A program made the translations under genes and the position numbers. Shown one piece after another: positions 43,205 through 53,359 of a stretch of DNA of 64,000 nucleotides. Below the pieces are notes generated by a model. The model had not been told where the DNA came from and ran no database searches. It saw nothing but the letters and a program-made list of their open reading frames with translations. Numbering within the stretch: position 1 is the first letter of the stretch; each line of letters begins with the position of its first letter. The DNA comes from Bacteroidota bacterium (GTDB lineage: Bacteria > Bacteroidota > JABWAT01), in assembly GCA_017303995.1 (NCBI GenBank), contig JAFLBE010000003.1:1-64000 (forward strand), written 5' to 3'.

Positions 43205-45712
43205 TTATTTTGCTACAATATTAACAAGTTTATTCGGTACTGCAATAATTTTTACAATAGTAAGACCCTGCAAAAATTTCTGAACTTGCTCATTTGAGGT
43301 TGCTAAAGCTTTCACAGTTTCTTCTGAAGAATCTCTTGGGACTTCAATATTTCCCCTGAGTTTTCCATTTACCTGAATTACCAGAGTGATATTGTCAGAA
43401 ATGGTGGCTTCCGGATGGAAAGATGGCCAACCCCGATCAAATACTGAACCACTAAAGCCAAGTTGAGAAAGCAATTCTTCAGAAATATGTGGTGCAATTG
43501 GCGTGAAAACTTCAAGAAATCTTACGGTACAGTGTTTAATCACTTCCCTGTAAAGCTGATTGGATTCTAAAAGAGCACGGTCAGTTTTGTTCAGTTCATT
43601 CATGAGTTCCATAAAGGCAGCAACCGCTGTGTTGAACTTGAAATCACCCAGATCATCGGTTACTTTTTTAACAGTCTGATGAGTTTTCTGGTAAATTTTA
43701 AACGAAACCGGATCCAATTCTTTTATCTCAAACTGTGTTTTAAATTCAGCTTTTTCCAAAAGATCAAGGTTATCAGTGACAAATGCCCAAATTCGATTCA
43801 GAAACCGGTTTGCACCTGCTACACCTTCATTCGTCCATTCAAAATCACGTTCGGGAGGAGCTGCAAACAAAATCATGACCCGGCCTGTATCAGCTCCCCA
43901 TTCTTTTACAAACTCTCCAACGGGGACCACATTTCCTTTTGACTTCGACATTTTCTCCAGTTTTCCTGTTTTGGGGGAAAACATGGTTACCATGCCCTGA
44001 GTAAAAAGGTTATGGAATGGCTCGGTGAAATTGATGAGTCCGATGCGGTGAAGTGCTTTGGTGATAAACCGGGAATAAAGCAAATGAAGAACGGCATGTT
44101 CGGCACCACCAATATACTGATCAACCGGAAGCCACATGTTGGCGATATCAGAATCAAAAATGGCATTACTGTTTTTGTTATCTGAATACCTGAGGTAGTA
44201 CCAGGATGAACACATGAAGGTGTCCATGGTATCGGCATCCCGTTTGGCGGGTCCTCCACAGGTTGGACAGGTTGTGTTAATCCATGATTCATCTGTTTCG
44301 AGCGGAGTTTTGCCCTGAGGTTTTAACTGCACATTTTTTTCGGAAGGAAGTCTGACCGGAAGTGACGGATCTTTTACCACACCACACTTTGCACAATGAA
44401 TCATTGGGATAGGAGCACCCCAGTACCGCTGACGGGAAATTAACCAGTCACGAAGGCGATAATTGATGGTTTTCTTGCCAAACCCTTCTTTCTCAATCCT
44501 TTCGGCGATTGCAACAATAAATTCTTCTGAGGATTTTCCATCGTACCCCGGTGTATTAATCATGATACCTTCATCAGTGAAGGCATTTTCCATGGTTTCA
44601 GGAGTTAGGTTATTTTTCTGATCCTGAATAACAAGTATGATCGGCAGGTCATATTTTTTTGCAAAAGCAAAATCACGTTCATCATGGGCAGGTACGCCCA
44701 TTACGATCCCGGTTCCGTAAGTTGCCAGAACGTAATCACCAATCCAAAGCGGTACTTTTTTCCCGGTTAACGGATGGATAAGATCAAGTCCTGAATAAAT
44801 CCCGGTTTTTTCTCCGGTTGACGTCCGTTCAATTTCTGTTTTGGCTTTTGAAAGAACCTGATAAGCTTCAATTCCCTTTTTCTGTTCAGGTGTAACCAGT
44901 TTCTTGATTTCTTCAACCAGTGGTTGTTCCGGAGAAATAGAAACGAAAGTAACCCCATAAATGGTGTCGGGGCGGGTGGTGAAAACCGTTAGTTTTTGGT
45001 TCAGTTCCGGTTGTTGAAACTGGATTTCAACACCAAGCGATTTCCCTATCCAGTCAATCTGCTGTTTCTTAACACTTTCCGGCCAGTTACTTAACTGATC
45101 CATGTCAGCGAGCAAATCATCAGCAAATTCGGTGATCTTTAAAAACCATTGTTCAAGATTTTTCTTGGTTACAGGCGTTCCGTGACGGTAACAAACCCCA
45201 TTTTCAACCTGTTCATTTGCTAAAACGGTTTGACAGTCGTTACACCAGTTAACAAATGCTTTTTTGCGGTAGGCAAGTCCGTTATCAAAAAGAAGCTGGA
45301 AAATATGCTGAGTCCACCGATAATAATCTTCACGGCAAGTGACGACTTCCCTGTCCCAGTCATAGCTTAAGCCAAGCAGCGACATGGTTTTTTTGTAAGT
45401 TTCAATGTTGCCATAAGTCCAATCACCGGGAGACACATTCCGTTCAATGGCCGCATTTTCTGCTGGGAGACCGAATGCATCAAATCCCATCGGGTGAAGA
45501 ATGTCATAGCCGTGAAGTTTTTTATACCGGGCAACCACATCACCGATTACGTAGTTTTTCAGGTGTCCCACATGCAGATCACCTGACGGATACGGAAACA
45601 TTTCAAGAACATAAAATTTTTTCTTAGGAGCTTTGGGAGTTTTAAAAATCCCTTTTGTTTCCCAAACAGATTGCCATTTGGGTTCAACATCTTTAAACGA
45701 ATATCTTGCCAT
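43205..45712 (-). CDS. leuS: leucyl-tRNA synthetase
   Basis: An 835-residue class I synthetase. The HIGH-equivalent [15 protein letters not shown] is near residue 40, the editing domain CP1 contains [12 protein letters not shown] and [15 protein letters not shown], the zinc-binding inserts have paired cysteines (CAKCGVV and CPTCGGP), and the KMSKS loop is [10 protein letters not shown] near 610. The C-terminal domain ends with [13 protein letters not shown] start at ATG 45712; a TTG five codons upstream is possible but has no ribosome site. Downstream is the MshEN-like gene, in the same orientation. Confidence 0.96.
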
Positions 45713-45753
45713 TGTTTTTTTATTCAACTAAAACTAGTAAGGTAGAAGGACAA

Positions 45754-45783
45754 ATACTGGATCCCCGTCTGCACGGGGATGAC
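45754..45783. repeat. palindrome ATCCCCGT-ctgc-ACGGGGAT
   Basis: A perfect eight-base inverted repeat (45761-45768 with 45773-45780) within the string actggatccccgt...acggggatgac, of a type common as dispersed intergenic repeats in many bacteria. It lies between asnS and leuS and could form a hairpin in their message; there is no T tract for termination. Confidence 0.7.
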
Positions 45784-45795
45784 AACCAGAACATT

Positions 45796-47091
45796 TTACG
45801 GTTTCAAACGGCCCATTAATCTTGCAAACGGAATGGTTTCCCGAACGTGGTGGATGCCGCAAATCCAGGAAACGGTTCTTTCAACACCCATTCCAAATCC
45901 GGCATGAGGAACAGAACCATATCTTCTGAGATCGAGATACCAGTCATAAGCTTCTTCGGGGAGTTTGTGTTCACGTATTTTTTCAAGAAGGAGATCAAGG
46001 TTGTCTTCTCTCTGTGCTCCGCCGATGATTTCGCCATATCCTTCAGGTGCGAGCATATCAACACCTTTAGCCTTTGACGGATCTTTTTCATCCTGCTTCA
46101 TATAGAAGGCTTTAACTTCCTTCGGCCAGTTGTAAACCATGACCGGTTTATCAAAATCTTCACCAATTCCGGTTTCATCAGGTGCACCGAAATCATTTCC
46201 GTATTCAAACGGTAGTCCTTTTTTGTGAAGGATCGCAACCGCTTCATCATAGGAAATACGTGGAAATGGACGTTTGATAACTTCAAGTTTGGTAATATCT
46301 CTTTCCAAAACTTCAAGTTCCATTTTCCGGTTGGTAAGAACCTGCTGAACGATGTGTTCAACGAATTCTTCCATCAGATCCATATTCATATCCAGATCAT
46401 AAAACGCCATTTCAGGTTCTACCATCCAGAATTCAGTCAGGTGACGACGGGTTTTTGATTTTTCTGCCCTGAAGGTCGGTCCAAATACGTAGGCTTTACC
46501 AAAAGCCATTGCTCCGGCTTCACCATAAAGCTGCCCAGACTGGGTAAGGTAGGCAGAACCTTCATCGAAATAGGGAGTTTCAAAAAGTGTGGTGGTACCT
46601 TCAACCGAATTCGGAGTAAAAATCGGCGCATCAAATAGAGTAAAGCCCCGGTCATCAAAAAAGTTACGGATGGATTTAATAATTTCATGGCGGATTCTGA
46701 GGATTGCCCACTGACGATGAGAACGAACCCAAAGGTGCCGGCGATCTGCGAGGAATTCCACACCGTGTTCTTTTGGCGTAATCGGATATTCCTGGGCAAG
46801 ATGAACGAGTTCAACCTTTTGAACATCAAGCTCGTAACCGCCAACTGAACGGGGTTCAGCTTTTACTGTTCCGGTAACAATAAAGCTGCTTTCCTGGGTG
46901 AGTGATTTTGCAACTTCAAACTCACCTTCTGCAACATTTTTAATAAATACAACACACTGACTGAGTCCGGTGCCGTCTCTCATGATTAAAAAAACAAGTT
47001 TTCCGCTGTGACGGCTGTTATAGAGCCAGCCTTTCAGGGTAACGGTTTCACCAACGTGGTTTTTTAGGTCGGAAATGTAGGTCTGTTTCAT
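45796..47091 (-). CDS. asnS: asparaginyl-tRNA synthetase
   Basis: A 431-residue class IIb synthetase. The N-terminal OB-fold anticodon domain ([24 protein letters not shown]) is followed by motif 2 [24 protein letters not shown] (residues ~210-233) and motif 3 [12 protein letters not shown] at ~405. The presence of IGGAQRE and absence of the aspartate-specific RDEDLR pattern favour asparagine over aspartate. Having AsnS suggests that Asn-tRNA is charged directly, though GatCAB may also be present. Confidence 0.95.
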
Positions 47092-47274
47092 AGTTTTTCT
47101 AAAAATCTTCTGAAAAAGGAATAAGTCAGGAAGATAATTAATCTATCTGATAAGTTCAAAAAATAAAGAGGAAGAAGTCGGAGAACAGAAGATAGAAGAA
47201 AGAAGTTAGAAGGTAGAAGATGGAAGGAAACTCACTTTTCATCCTGCAAAATTAAAAATTACCTTCCTTTCCTG

Positions 47275-47282
47275 TATCTTTG
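47275..47282 (+). promoter_or_regulatory. possible -7 element of nadE
   Basis: TATCTTTG fits the Bacteroidota -7 element TAnnTTTG and ends five bases before the nadE ATG; no good -33 element was found at the expected distance. Confidence 0.3.
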
Positions 47283-47287
47283 CCATT

Positions 47288-48115
47288 ATGCTCAATTTAA
47301 CTCTAAACTACGCAGAAATTTCAAAAGCCCTTGAACTTTTCATCCGGCAGGAAGTAACAGAGCCCGGATTTAAAAAAGTGGTTCTCGGACTTTCAGGTGG
47401 AATTGACTCTGCCCTCGTAGCCGGACTTGCAGCCCGTGCTTTGGGTCCCGAAAACGTGCTCGGTGTGAGAATGCCCTATCAGACCAGCTCTGCTGATTCC
47501 CTTTCGCACGCCGAACTTGTGGCAAATACTTTTAAAATTAAAATGGAAACCAAATCTATTACATCCGCCTGTGACGGTTATTTTTCATCTGATCCTGACA
47601 TGAATGCCCAGAGAAAAGGCAATGTCATGGCCAGAATGAGAATGATTACGCTTTTTGATCTTTCCTTCCGGGATTCTGCTTTGGTTCTGGGAACTTCCAA
47701 TAAAACTGAACTTATGCTGGGGTACGGAACCTGGTATGGTGATATGGCATCAGCAATTAATCCGATCGGTGATCTTTACAAAACCCAGATCTGGGAATTA
47801 TCCCGGTTTATCGGAGTTCCCGAAGAAGTCATCACCAAAAAACCTTCCGCAGACCTTTGGGTTGGCCAGACTGATGAGCAGGAAATGGGTTTCAGCTACC
47901 CGGAAGCTGATCAGATTTTGTATCACATGATAGACCTGCGTAAAAAAGATGAAGAAATCGTTGAACTGGGATTTTCAACTGATCTCGTCAAAAAAATCAG
48001 GCGAATGGTGATCCGATCCCAATATAAACGCAGAATGCCGGTCATCGCCAAATTAACCACACGTGCAGTCGGGACCGATTTTCTTTATCCCCGTGACTGG
48101 TATCAGCAGGTCTGA
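47288..48115 (+). CDS. nadE: ammonia-dependent NAD synthetase
   Basis: A 275-residue enzyme converting deamido-NAD to NAD with ATP and ammonia. The PP-loop LGLSGGIDSALVAG is at residues 33-46, GTSNKTELMLGYGTWYGDMA near 138, and KPSADLWVGQTDEQEMGFSY near 200. No glutaminase domain is present, so it is the ammonia type. It is the first gene of a nadE-rsmI-PHP run; rsmI starts immediately after its stop codon. Confidence 0.96.
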   Translation: MLNLTLNYAEISKALELFIRQEVTEPGFKKVVLGLSGGIDSALVAGLAARALGPENVLGVRMPYQTSSADSLSHAELVANTFKIKMETKSITSACDGYFSSDPDMNAQRKGNVMARMRMITLFDLSFRDSALVLGTSNKTELMLGYGTWYGDMASAINPIGDLYKTQIWELSRFIGVPEEVITKKPSADLWVGQTDEQEMGFSYPEADQILYHMIDLRKKDEEIVELGFSTDLVKKIRRMVIRSQYKRRMPVIAKLTTRAVGTDFLYPRDWYQQV

Positions 48116-48826
48116 ATGTCAAATAACGCCTCACCCGGAACCCTCTACCTCGTAGCAACTCCCATCGGCAATCTTGATGACATGACGTTTCGTGCCGTCA
48201 ATATTCTCAAAACAGCCGATCTTGTTGCCGCTGAAGACACAAGAAATTCTTCAGTACTTTTCCGTCATTTTGAGATTAAAACCCCAATGACGGCCTACCA
48301 TGAATATAATGAACGGACAAAAGGACCTGAACTGATTCAGGATCTCCTTGGCGGGAAATCTGTGGCGGTCATTACCGATGCCGGAACTCCCGGTATTTCT
48401 GATCCGTGTTATCCGCTGGTCAAACTGGCAATTGAAGCGGGAATCCGTGTAGAATCAATTCCCGGCGCATGTGCAGCCATTTCAGCTTTGGTTATTTCTG
48501 GACTGCCAGTTCACAGATTCCGTTACGAAGGTTTCCTTCCGCACAAAAAAGGACGCCAAACCCGGATGCTTTCATTAAAAGAAGAAACCGGATCCATCAT
48601 TTTCTATGAATCACCCCATCGGGTTGTAAAACTACTTGAAGAAATAAAAGAATTTCTGGGTGAAAGAAACGTTTCAGTTTCCCGTGAACTTACCAAAAAA
48701 TTTGAAGAAACGATTCGGGGTCCTGTTTCTGACGTTCTTGCCATTTTAAAATCGAAAGAGCACAAAGGCGAATTTGTTGTGGTGATTGAAGGTCTTTCTG
48801 ACCGGCGGAGACCCAATGAAGACTGA
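48116..48826 (+). CDS. rsmI: 16S rRNA (cytidine-1402 2'-O)-methyltransferase
   Basis: A 236-residue tetrapyrrole-methylase-fold enzyme that methylates C1402 of 16S rRNA in the decoding site. Typical motifs: TLYLVATPIGNLDDMTFRA, AAEDTRNSSVL, AYHEYNERTKGPEL, the SAM loop ITDAGTPGISDPCYPLV, and SIPGACAAISALVISGLP. The C-terminal helical region (FYESPHRVVKLLEE, RELTKKFEETIRG) is complete. ATG directly follows the nadE TGA. Confidence 0.96.
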   Translation: MSNNASPGTLYLVATPIGNLDDMTFRAVNILKTADLVAAEDTRNSSVLFRHFEIKTPMTAYHEYNERTKGPELIQDLLGGKSVAVITDAGTPGISDPCYPLVKLAIEAGIRVESIPGACAAISALVISGLPVHRFRYEGFLPHKKGRQTRMLSLKEETGSIIFYESPHRVVKLLEEIKEFLGERNVSVSRELTKKFEETIRGPVSDVLAILKSKEHKGEFVVVIEGLSDRRRPNED

Positions 48827-50033
48827 CCGGTTCATTGTATCGGTTATGGTTGCCGGATTGGTTCTGCTTGTTGTTCTTGTTATTACCTTTCTCTTTTCTC
48901 TTCGGTATCAAACTGAGACTGCTGAGTTAAGTGCTCCTGAGTTGGATGGATTTCATCACTACAAGGGCATTTTTCATGTTCTTACGACCTATTCAGGCGC
49001 TGAAATTGATTATCCCGGTTTAAAACAAACTGTTGCAGAATACAATTTTGTGATTACCACCGAAAAAAATTCTTATGAATCCAGGATTCGTGGTGAAGGT
49101 GGTTTTTATGATAGTTTAACTATCCTTCCCGAAATACAAGTTTCCCTTCCAGGCGGATCCGGTTGGTTTGCTTCTTTGGATGTTCCCGATTTTACTGATA
49201 TTTCAGCCGGTGATCGTTTTGATTTGTATTCCCCTGATGAAAATCCATTTGCCGGGGGATTCAACATTGCGCTTTACTCTAACCATCCTGAATTAGGTTG
49301 GAAATCTGCAGATTCATCTGTTCAGGCTGTTGAGATATGGAATTTTGAATCTGGCTGGCGAAACCTTTCCTCCCCGTTTTTTTCTGTTACCTCTTTTTTA
49401 CTGTCCGACCATCTTCCCTGGATTTTAAATAAATTTATGACCTACCCGGAATCCGGGATTAATTGGATTAATCGACCCACAGCCGATCCCCTTGTTTTAA
49501 TTGGCGGATCAGGTGCAGTTGAACCTAAAAAATGGCTTGGCATCTGGACTGTTCAATTCCCTTCCTATCCGTCAGTTTTAAAAACCTCGGTTCTTCATTT
49601 ACTGACTGAACCTTTTCTTTCACATTCTGCTTATCAAAACACTCTGGTTATCAACCATGCCATCCGGGAAGGACAGTTTTTCGTTTCAAATGATTTGCTT
49701 GCTCCAGCTGACGGCTTCAGAACCTGGATGACAATCCGGGGAAAATCGTACACAAATATTCATTTACACGCTGATCCGGATACCGCCATCTGGTCAATGA
49801 GAATCCCGAAAACTGAAAGTGAATTGATTCTTCGTTTGTTCAAAAATGGTTCGGTTTGGAAGGAATTTGAAAAACCAGCTGATCAGAATATTCTTCTCGA
49901 AAATGATGGCAGTTACCGGGCAGAAGTTTGGCAGATCAGAAAACCTTGGTATGGTTTCCTGTTCTTTTGGCGTGATAATGCAGATTGGGCGCTTCCCTGG
50001 ATATTTACCCAGAATTACAGGATTGGAAACTAA
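48816..50033 (+). CDS. membrane-anchored degenerate PHP-domain protein
   Basis: A 405-residue protein starting at ATG 48816 inside the end of rsmI. One transmembrane helix (residues ~7-30) places the rest in the periplasm. The body follows the PHP (polymerase and histidinol phosphatase) layout: FHVLTTYS (54-60), VITTEKN (79-85), SNHPELGW (~155-162), AVEIWN, IGGSGAV, and a late TVQFPSYPSVLKTSVLHLL that matches the family's usual tail. However, the metal ligands are mostly gone: HxH is H54-x-L56, TDHN is TEKN, and GSDAH is GSGAV; H157 and the EIWN Glu remain. It is probably not a metallohydrolase. A beta-rich C-terminal domain follows. Function unknown. Confidence 0.7.
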   Translation: MKTDRFIVSVMVAGLVLLVVLVITFLFSLRYQTETAELSAPELDGFHHYKGIFHVLTTYSGAEIDYPGLKQTVAEYNFVITTEKNSYESRIRGEGGFYDSLTILPEIQVSLPGGSGWFASLDVPDFTDISAGDRFDLYSPDENPFAGGFNIALYSNHPELGWKSADSSVQAVEIWNFESGWRNLSSPFFSVTSFLLSDHLPWILNKFMTYPESGINWINRPTADPLVLIGGSGAVEPKKWLGIWTVQFPSYPSVLKTSVLHLLTEPFLSHSAYQNTLVINHAIREGQFFVSNDLLAPADGFRTWMTIRGKSYTNIHLHADPDTAIWSMRIPKTESELILRLFKNGSVWKEFEKPADQNILLENDGSYRAEVWQIRKPWYGFLFFWRDNADWALPWIFTQNYRIGN

Positions 50034-50113
50034 GGCGGTCTAAACTATACGCTATACGCCGTACGTGGTACGTTATACGATATAATAAAAATTATAAGTA
50101 ATAAGTATTTAGT

Positions 50114-50153
50114 CCCCCTTTGAAGGGGGTGTCCGTCGGCTGACGGACGGGGG
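50114..50153. repeat. double-hairpin palindromic repeat before lnt
   Basis: Two adjacent perfect hairpins: CCCCCTT-tg-AAGGGGG (50114-50129) and GTCCGTC-ggct-GACGGAC (50131-50148), followed by GGGGATG. The pattern is of a type seen as dispersed repeats in FCB genomes. It ends nine bases before the lnt start, so it makes up the ribosome-binding region of lnt. Confidence 0.8.
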
Positions 50154-50161
50154 ATGTGGTC

Positions 50162-51760
50162 ATGCAATCATTTTTCAAATCTCTTTTTATCGAACCCCGT
50201 GCCGGGAAAGAATTTCTGGGATATTTCCTTGGCGGACTTTTCTGGTGTTTGAGTTTCGCGCCGTTTAATATTTCCTTTTTTGGCTGGTTTGCGTTAATTC
50301 CCTTATTCTTTCTTTTCAAAAGAAATGAAGGATTTGGGACAACCTGGGTAAAAACCTACCTCTATCTTTTAATTACCCACACTCTCACTGTTTATTGGAT
50401 TTGCTTTTCCACTTTTGCGGGTGGCATGGGGGCCATTTTGGTCAATCCGATTTTCTTAATGATACCGGTTACAATTTGGTTATTACTTAGAAACCGGATT
50501 AAATCAGAAGCCATTTCTCTTGTTTTTCTTCTGTTTTTATGGATTATTGGGGAATATTTGCTCAGTATTTGGGAACTTGCCTTTCCCTGGATGTTTCTTG
50601 CAAACGGGCAATACCTGATTTCGCCTCTGCTTCAGTGGGCATCTGTGGGTGGTGCCTGGATGGTCTCAGCTTTTGTTTTTTCCTTTAATATTCTGTTCTA
50701 TTTTCTTGTTGTAAGTTGGATTCTTGATCGGCCAATTACCAACAAAGTCCGCCTGATTGTAACCTTTTCCGTTTTGATGCCGATTCTGATTGGATATTTT
50801 ATCGGACAGGAAAAACTTCCATCTATCGGGAAAATGAAGGCAGGAATCATTCAGCCAAATGTAGATCCATGGATAAAATGGGATCAGGAACTAGAAAATT
50901 ATGAACAGTTGATGAACCTATCCGACAGTCTTATTCAGTTGGATACGTCCATTAATCTGATAGTCTGGCCAGAAACAGCAGTTTCCTATTATTTGCTGGA
51001 TGATCGTGGGGCGTTTATCAGAAAGGAAATGGAAACGTTCAGTGCTGAACACAATACTGCAATTCTGACCGGCTATCCTCACATTTTCTATTATGAAGAT
51101 TCGCTTTCAGCTCCACCCAGTGCCCGCTGGAGCCGGATGAACAAGAAATACTATCACAATTACAATGCAGCAACAGTTTTTGACGGGATAACGGAACCAC
51201 ACTTTTACGGAAAAATCTCACTGGTTCCTTTTGCTGAACGGGTTCCGTGGGTCGATTCGGCTCCGTTCATGAAAGACCTCAGGTTTAATCTGGCCGGACT
51301 TGGCGGTTGGGGAAAAGGAAAAGATACGTCAAATTACATTCTTTCCAGAAATCCGAAGGCAGTTTTCCCGACAGCAATCTGTTACGAATCTGCCTTTCCT
51401 GAACTGATCAGAACGTTTGCAAAGAAAGGCGCCACATTTCTTACCGTTATCACCAATGATGGCTGGTGGGGAAATACTTCGGGGTATCACCAACATTTTG
51501 AATTTTCCCGACTCAGAGCAATCGAAAACCACCGATGGGTTGTCAGATCTGCGAATAATGGAATTTCAGGGTTTATTGATCCGCACGGAAATGTCATTCA
51601 ATCAACAGAGTACTGGACAGAACGCATTTTGTCCCAGGAAATCGAACTCATTGCTGAGCCTTCGCTTTATACCCGGTTTGGTGACTGGTTTCCGCAACTT
51701 TTGTTCGTTTTGTCACTTGGAATGACAGGACTGATTCTAGTTCGGAAACGGATTATCTGA
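50162..51760 (+). CDS. lnt: apolipoprotein N-acyltransferase
   Basis: A 532-residue inner-membrane enzyme adding the third acyl chain to lipoproteins. The N-terminal ~200 residues have several transmembrane helices (GLFWCLSFAPFNISFFGWFAL is one); the periplasmic nitrilase-fold domain contains the catalytic Glu in LIVWPETAVSYY, Lys in HFYGKISLVPFAERVPW and Cys in PTAICYESAFPEL, then ITNDGWWGNTSGYHQH. The C-terminal helix ends in RKR. I prefer ATG 50162; GTG 50156 is two codons upstream. An lnt gene confirms an outer-membrane-bearing organism with triacylated lipoproteins. Confidence 0.95.
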   Translation: MQSFFKSLFIEPRAGKEFLGYFLGGLFWCLSFAPFNISFFGWFALIPLFFLFKRNEGFGTTWVKTYLYLLITHTLTVYWICFSTFAGGMGAILVNPIFLMIPVTIWLLLRNRIKSEAISLVFLLFLWIIGEYLLSIWELAFPWMFLANGQYLISPLLQWASVGGAWMVSAFVFSFNILFYFLVVSWILDRPITNKVRLIVTFSVLMPILIGYFIGQEKLPSIGKMKAGIIQPNVDPWIKWDQELENYEQLMNLSDSLIQLDTSINLIVWPETAVSYYLLDDRGAFIRKEMETFSAEHNTAILTGYPHIFYYEDSLSAPPSARWSRMNKKYYHNYNAATVFDGITEPHFYGKISLVPFAERVPWVDSAPFMKDLRFNLAGLGGWGKGKDTSNYILSRNPKAVFPTAICYESAFPELIRTFAKKGATFLTVITNDGWWGNTSGYHQHFEFSRLRAIENHRWVVRSANNGISGFIDPHGNVIQSTEYWTERILSQEIELIAEPSLYTRFGDWFPQLLFVLSLGMTGLILVRKRII

Positions 51761-52096
51761 AAGGAAAATACGTTTTAAACAGGGATGAACAGGATGGTCA
51801 GGATATTAACAATGGATTATGGGAATTTGTAATTGGTAAAAAACTTGCAAATTTGAAATGGTAACCCCAGCGGGGTGAATCTTGTTAGATAAACAAAACC
51901 ACACACAATTCGAACCGCCCAGGCACAACCCTATTTGAAACTGAGAATCCGGTTCCGGGCGGAAATGCGATTCTCCCACGCCCAAGCAAGAATACTTGCC
52001 GGGTTAAAAGATCACGCTGATTTTCACGGATGAATGAAAAACAATTTGATCCGGATACAGAAAATAAAGGCTCATGATTAATGAAGGCTACCCGGT
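51761..52096. other. gene-free 336-base region built of repeat fragments
   Basis: No open frame or RNA gene was found. It contains a run of aacaggatg/gtcaggat units (51783-51806), a short hairpin ACCCC-agc-GGGGT (51864-51876) within ggtaaccccagcggggtgaat, an inverted pair GAGAATC (51943-51949) / GATTCTC (51969-51975), CCGCCC (51915-51920) / GGGCGG (51957-51962), and cacgctgattttcacggatgaatg near 52014-52037. These look like several dispersed repeat types joined end to end. Confidence 0.6.
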
Positions 52097-53359
52097 TTGA
52101 AAACTAAATTGATAGCATTTTTGGGAATACTTTTCCTTCTCGCTGGAATCCCTGAGCTTGTAAAACCTCAATCTATTTTTGAGGTTATGAAATTGGGGCA
52201 GGATCCGGTTATCCGGATTTTACTTTATAAAGGAACCATACCCCAGAAAATTACACTTCCAACCGGCTCAGAAGTATTTACTTCAATCGGAGTCCGCCGG
52301 ATTACTCCGCAAACCCAATGTTTGGTTGCCCTGAAAGGAAATTCTATTTCTTTAACAGTCGGTGATAACAAATTTGTATCATCCGATTCCCTTTCCATCA
52401 AAATACCCAGTACTGAAACCTTTCTTTTAGATGGAAATGAATATCACGGAAGTCTTATCCTTCATTATTCCAATAATGAGTTACTTGTTGTGAACCATGT
52501 TGATCTTGAATCCTACCTTCAATCGGTAATCCCAACCGAAATTGGACAAGGCCGGAAAAAACAGGATCTCGAATCAGTAAAAGTTCAGGCAATTGCCGCC
52601 AGAACATTTACCTACGGAAAAATACTAAGTAAAAAAGCAAGTATTGGGAAATATGACTTACTCCCAACCGTTATGGATCAGGCCTATTTTGGTACAAAAA
52701 GTGAAAACAACACCTACCGGGTTGCCATTGCTGCCACAAACGGAATGGTCGGTGTTTTTGATTCAACATTAATTGAAGCCTTATATCATTCAACTTGTGG
52801 CGGATTAACAGAAAATTCTGAAAGTGTTTGGGGTGGAAATAAAATAAGTTACCTGCAATCGGTTTATTGTGGTGATGACACTTCCTCATTTTGCGGAGCT
52901 TCACCGTTCTTCAACTGGGAAAGAATAGTTGATATGAAACGGCATAACACATTCTTCTTCAGGCAGATAATTAAGTATGTAGAGAAAAACCCGGCTCACC
53001 CAATTTTCAAAAATAAGACGACGGAAAAAATTGAAATTTCAGGAAGAGATTCTTCTGGCCGGGTATTGGGTCTCAGAATAATAAACGGATCTGGTGCCGA
53101 AGTTCTTGCTCAGGGTGATTACCTGAGATGGCTTTTCCCTGATTCAACCGGAAAAATTCTGTCCTCAGTCTGGTTTGATCTGGAAACAATTCGGTCGGAC
53201 TCAGGTGAACTGGAACAAGTTCATTTTAAAGGCCGGGGTTACGGTCATGGTCTTGGAATCTGCCAATGGGGTGCGGTCGGAATGAGTCGCCGGGGTTACA
53301 CTTATGATCAGATTTTCAGGTTTTATTACCGGGGTGCCAGGATTGTGAAGTTGTACTGA
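52097..53359 (+). CDS. SpoIID/LytB-like peptidoglycan hydrolase
   Basis: A 420-residue exported protein with a signal peptide ending near residue 25 (PELVKPQ). The SpoIID domain (about 130-415) contains the catalytic Glu in QSVIPTEIG, AIAARTFTYG, HSTCGGLTE and the terminal GRGYGHGLGICQWGAVGMSRRGY. SpoIID is a lytic transglycosylase that cuts denuded glycan strands; homologues outside spore formers act in cell division and sporulation-like remodelling. The start is TTG at 52097, with AAGG nine bases upstream. Confidence 0.88.
   Translation: MKTKLIAFLGILFLLAGIPELVKPQSIFEVMKLGQDPVIRILLYKGTIPQKITLPTGSEVFTSIGVRRITPQTQCLVALKGNSISLTVGDNKFVSSDSLSIKIPSTETFLLDGNEYHGSLILHYSNNELLVVNHVDLESYLQSVIPTEIGQGRKKQDLESVKVQAIAARTFTYGKILSKKASIGKYDLLPTVMDQAYFGTKSENNTYRVAIAATNGMVGVFDSTLIEALYHSTCGGLTENSESVWGGNKISYLQSVYCGDDTSSFCGASPFFNWERIVDMKRHNTFFFRQIIKYVEKNPAHPIFKNKTTEKIEISGRDSSGRVLGLRIINGSGAEVLAQGDYLRWLFPDSTGKILSSVWFDLETIRSDSGELEQVHFKGRGYGHGLGICQWGAVGMSRRGYTYDQIFRFYYRGARIVKLY

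Follow-up and report, generated by a model that had tools for sequence, protein, structure and literature searches.

PHP domains carry three metals coordinated by nine conserved residues (PMC3666897). The set is not always complete: in the PHP domain of Escherichia coli Pol III the metal ligands have been lost and the role is structural, and among the variant PHP domains of polymerases the ligands are most often replaced by arginine (PMC3666897). Here we describe a protein of the variant kind from a Bacteroidota bacterium, encoded in a 64,000-nucleotide stretch of contig JAFLBE010000003.1 (the window), which an initial annotation had read as an unusual stand-alone PHP pseudoenzyme. At a probability of roughly 0.5, we consider it to be a catalytically dead, single-pass, membrane-tethered PHP protein, probably periplasmic, that acts as a non-enzymatic partner of apolipoprotein N-acyltransferase (Lnt) or its surroundings. 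Lnt is the last enzyme of lipoprotein maturation, and its step is usually treated as the work of one enzyme acting alone.

The gene was said to lie between rsmI and lnt, and so it does, overlapping the former and followed by the latter (Table 1). The name rsmI is the one given in the initial annotation and is putative. The single N-terminal helix proposed there is also borne out, mean Kyte-Doolittle hydropathy being 3.06 across residues 7-25. An AF2 model built on two sequences (pLDDT 33) has residues 2-36, a helix, as its sole well-scored part. Flanking charge is +1 before the helix and -1 after it, a weak bias by which the domain would most likely face the periplasm. Towards the C-terminus, a Q-x-R motif (Q373, R375) precedes the aromatic insertion and is common to all 16 anchored forms described below.

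Table 1. Features of the PHP gene and its immediate surroundings in the window (1-based positions; residue numbers refer to the PHP protein).
Feature	Position	Strand	Basis or remark
rsmI homologue (presumed)	48116..48826	+	11-nt overlap of its stop end with the PHP gene
GGAG, Shine-Dalgarno-like	48807..48810	+	5 nt upstream of the ATG; read from sequence
Membrane-anchored degenerate PHP protein, CehA/McbA-related, 405 aa	48816..50033	+	Frame open from ATG 48816 to stop 50033, read from sequence; homology; relatives; dN/dS
N-terminal transmembrane helix, residues 7-28	48834..48899	+	Hydropathy, flanking charge, AF2 helix
PHP domain, approximately residues 46-265	48951..49610	+	Alignments, hhalign
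Motif I: H54 kept, L56 at second His, G61 at Asp	48975..48998	+	Alignment
Motif II: TEKN for TDHN (T82-E-K-N85); K84 is metal position 4, same in three congeners	49059..49070	+	Alignment
Q108 at metal position 5, where intact forms and G001 have Glu	49137..49139	+	Alignment
W117 at metal position 6, where intact forms have His	49164..49166	+	Alignment
H157, kept in three congeners; may be metal position 7	49284..49286	+	Alignment, ambiguous
Motif IV: GSGAV (G231-S-G-A-V235) for GSDxH, without the ligands of metal positions 8 and 9	49506..49520	+	Alignment
C-terminal domain, residues 266-375	49611..49940	+	In degenerate forms relatively better conserved than cleft
Aromatic insertion near C-terminus, residues 376-392, KPWYGFLFFWRDNADWA	49941..49991	+	Absent from anchorless relatives
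Intergenic stretch with dispersed repeat AGTCCCCCTTTGAAGGGGG	50034..50161	.	15 genome copies
lnt, apolipoprotein N-acyltransferase	50162..51760	+	Motifs WPE, GKxxLVPF, ICYE; start by comparison with G002

Assignment to the PHP superfamily is not evident from the lone protein. As a query it matches nothing in Pfam or NCBIfam, the CehA/McbA model NF038032 included, and a PDB search gives merely two matches at E ~1, neither usable. These results would fit a protein that is not PHP at all and whose motif order is merely convergent. Against this, a profile-profile comparison with hhalign of the three congeneric proteins (the window's and two orthologues, below) and intact relatives spans residues 46-404 with a probability of 99.5% and E = 1.3e-22, so that the resemblance is not due to chance. 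Moreover, relatives of the same protein are recognised as CehA/McbA in eight of the 11 members of alignment A1, all eight from a second family, f20, which belongs to another class of the phylum. We regard convergence as very improbable. The claim that the PHP scaffold order is kept thus stands, and no better match to another fold was found by sequence. Both the anchorless relatives and the anchored relatives in f20 match NF038032, although the intact paralogue in the window's own genome (74 bits) and an intact anchored relative (74.9 bits) fall just under its curated cut-off of 80 bits. This paralogue, anchorless and of CehA/McbA type with all nine ligands (G000:C117:32248-33234; L043:8195-9280), would serve well as a comparison protein.

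The nine ligands are complete in all 33 anchorless relatives in our alignment. In the window protein only His54, at position 1, is surely kept; positions 2, 3, 4, 5, 6, 8 and 9 are occupied by L56, G61, K84, Q108, W117, G233 and V235, while position 7 is either S155 or H157, the alignment being ambiguous there. The initial annotation had recognised three of these changes, HxH to HxL, TDHN to TEKN and GSDxH to GSGxV, each of which we find (as H54-V-L56, T82-E-K-N85 and G231-S-G-A-V235). To its list should be added the Asp of SDG (G61), the motif-III Glu (Q108) and the next His (W117). It had also counted H157 and the EIWN Glu as retained; both residues are present, but the latter, E173, is not among the nine metal ligands and a ligand role for H157 is ambiguous. 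The more divergent congener, G001, retains slightly more of the site, with Asp at position 3 and Glu at position 5. The substitutions are kept within the genus: the three congeners have all lost positions 2, 4, 6, 8 and 9, with no His, Asp, Glu or Cys in their place, and the alignment reveals no alternative ligands at the lost positions.

From these replacements, the window protein is very probably a catalytically dead enzyme. It could instead still be an enzyme, its cleft rebuilt with other residues (such as H54, E83, K84, H157 and E173) or working with a single metal and a changed reaction. The invariance of H54, T82, E83, K84, N85, H157 and E173 among the three congeners would suit such a protein, as would the acids found at positions 3 and 5 in most f20 members. 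However, the five positions lost throughout the genus, without a candidate ligand in any of them, argue the other way, as does the weaker conservation of the cleft regions in the degenerate f20 forms, and retained catalysis seems unlikely.

This last point reflects a reversal in the pattern of conservation. Anchorless relatives conserve the cleft more strongly than the C-terminal domain. The degenerate f20 forms do the opposite, with greater conservation in the C-terminal domain and tail than in the cleft, and in the window's genus the best-conserved block comprises residues 296-315.

Comparison with the nearer congener, G002, gives dN/dS values of 0.103 for the PHP gene, 0.055 for lnt and 0.115 for a SpoIID-like gene, with leuS, asnS, nadE and rsmI ranging from 0.003 to 0.067. 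The PHP gene is real and under purifying selection. It might still be seen as what remains of an anchored hydrolase, decaying towards a pseudogene, and the protein does change faster than most of its neighbours, being 84% identical to that of G002 where the leuS, asnS, nadE and rsmI products are 97-100% identical. The frame is, however, open at full length in all 16 genomes, dN/dS is 0.10, a ribosome-binding site is present and the TEKN motif is identical in the three congeners, all of which make a relic highly improbable. In the same comparison (span 43205-53359), a step in identity and dS is seen near the start of the PHP gene: dS is 0.24-0.45 for the four conserved neighbours and 0.85-1.14 for the PHP, lnt and SpoIID-like genes, whose products are 81-91% identical. 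The step may mark recombination.

The distribution of the protein was assessed in a sample of approximately 395 genomes of the phylum, 197 of one class and 98 of another plus smaller groups, these sets overlapping. Genome searches retrieved orthologues in the two congeners, at 84% identity in G002 and 48% in G001, and more distant relatives in some 50 genomes. The G002 contig, JAIUNL010000008.1 from Bacteroidetes bacterium isolate BAC1, was the sole match in a scan of genome contigs; viral contigs scanned with both profiles yielded no relatives. In f20 an anchored homologue is present in all 13 genomes. The anchored subfamily, which carries no existing name, therefore numbers 16 members, three congeners and 13 from f20, in two distant lineages. 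The stand-alone, anchored character of the protein was correctly read in the initial annotation. It is not unique, the anchored form being the rule in f20, both with intact and with dead sites.

Degenerate metal sites are found in 13 of the 16 anchored forms. Within f20, three members have all nine ligands; the other ten, each lacking several, group in a single supported clade (97/89) of an unrooted tree with long branches. Nine of the ten have Arg for His at position 6, and all three congeners have Lys at position 4. Since this degenerate clade excludes the intact f20 members, the window's genus has lost its ligands separately; judged from these sequences, metal-site loss has occurred independently at least twice. 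Intact and dead versions of the gene are even found inside a single f20 genus, providing a natural series from enzyme to structural protein. The anchored forms share twelve near-invariant residues, Q373 and R375 included, that depart from the anchorless consensus. These shared residues, the anchor and the gene pairing discussed next would favour placing the two anchored groups in one clade of this unrooted, long-branched tree.

The pairing is with lnt, and its recurrence, the most informative fact, was missed in the initial annotation: lnt lies directly downstream of the PHP gene in every one of the 16 anchored relatives, in both distant lineages. The two genes are separated by about -4 to 12 nt in 13 cases (12 of the 13 f20 genomes and G001; in G399 the lnt start is ambiguous), with 128 nt in the window and 136 nt in G002. 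By contrast, lnt was seen beside none of the 33 anchorless relatives, within the roughly 1-1.5 kb of flank examined or with lnt on another contig, and no PHP gene was seen near the lnt loci of 23 other genomes. The repeat AGTCCCCCTTTGAAGGGGG, at 50111-50129 in the intergenic stretch of the window, has 15 exact copies in the genome, one of them within the window, where the reversed control has none. A second inverted repeat, GTCCGTCGGCTGACGGAC, comes next after it.

The wider neighbourhoods differ. The pair is accompanied in the window's lineage by leuS, asnS, nadE, rsmI and the SpoIID-like gene, names that we take from the initial annotation and general recognition, and in f20 by ispF, DedA/VTT, beta-eliminating lyase and anthranilate-synthase-type genes. 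The DedA/VTT gene, encoding a membrane protein and thus an envelope-lipid neighbour, lies just 5' of the pair in 11 of the 13 f20 genomes and was not found upstream of it in G399 and G396. The PHP-lnt pair is the sole element common to the neighbourhoods of both lineages. In G003, of the window's family but another genus (G003:C1, L129), nadE, rsmI, lnt and a maf-like gene follow in the same order with neither the PHP gene nor the SpoIID-like gene, rsmI being followed by lnt; Lnt is thus able to do without the PHP protein. In a tree of Lnt sequences the window's protein groups with that of G003 (100/100) and each lnt gene sorts with its own lineage, so that lnt itself was not imported. Transfer of the PHP gene and lnt as one horizontal unit was considered and rejected, since G003 has no PHP gene at that place. 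Given that the pair is all that the lineages share and that lnt follows those lineages, the pairing is either ancestral or was made twice.

Whether this association reflects a partnership with Lnt, functional or physical, is to our reading an even question, gene adjacency alone not establishing contact between the two proteins. The dead PHP protein might serve the envelope with no direct tie to Lnt, sharing an operon for, say, co-ordinated envelope expression. The gene run in f20, with its ispF and DedA/VTT, the rsmI upstream in the window's genus and the PHP-less lnt of G003 would all accommodate this. On the other hand, no other element is common to both lineages, and a pairing that is ancestral or twice made amid lineage-bound lnt genes is less readily accommodated. 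We hold such an untied role to be a real possibility, though below even odds.

A partnership with Lnt, which we prefer, could have arisen from a CehA/McbA-type PHP hydrolase turned single-pass membrane protein. Made together with Lnt and tethered at the outer face of the inner membrane, the protein would give non-enzymatic aid to Lnt or to nearby lipid and lipoprotein traffic. The former metal cleft would be retained, empty, as a structural core in which Lys84 may take the place of a metal ion, as Arg may at several positions in f20. The surfaces meeting Lnt, lipid or apolipoprotein would be the C-terminal domain together with the aromatic tail loop close to the membrane. The three anchored members that retain nine ligands count against a purely non-enzymatic partner; they imply that the pairing with lnt did not start from a dead protein, and may themselves still act as enzymes. 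A more specific and rather doubtful version makes the protein an accessory factor of lipoprotein N-acylation, in which a PHP hydrolase was first tethered in active form beside Lnt, perhaps with the lysophospholipid released by Lnt as its substrate, and was later converted, at least twice, to a dead scaffold or a lipid-binding partner of Lnt. Were the link to Lnt true, a lipoprotein maturation step would gain an extra partner. That a distant family has the same gene pair with a loss of its own is suggestive of a non-enzymatic function in the envelope.

The titles and abstracts retrieved on PHP pseudoenzymes, lnt-linked neighbourhoods, Lnt-related pseudoenzymes and periplasmic anchored PHP proteins describe no such protein. 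As far as this literature goes, the combination of a stand-alone anchored PHP protein, repeated metal loss and a constant place beside one enzyme is undescribed. Among known proteins, the CehA/McbA hydrolases (NF038032) share with the window protein a two-part layout, aligned over the range given above. They differ in that the window protein has a membrane anchor, an aromatic tail insertion and the lnt pairing, and is without nearly all metal ligands. PDB 3e38, a two-domain PHP-like protein, has the PHP domain in common and is matched over the N-terminal motifs, although weakly (E = 0.0014) and by the intact relatives rather than the window protein. With its nine-ligand set incomplete and its scaffold kept, as far as can be told from sequence, the window protein fits the definition of a variant PHP domain (PMC3666897). 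The variant PHP of E. coli DNA polymerase III alpha is similar in that the domain was kept after ligand loss, with basic replacements, and there a non-enzymatic role has been demonstrated (PMC3666897). That domain, however, is part of a cytosolic polymerase, whereas the window protein, rather than being embedded in a C-family polymerase, is a separate chain of 405 residues with a membrane helix of its own.
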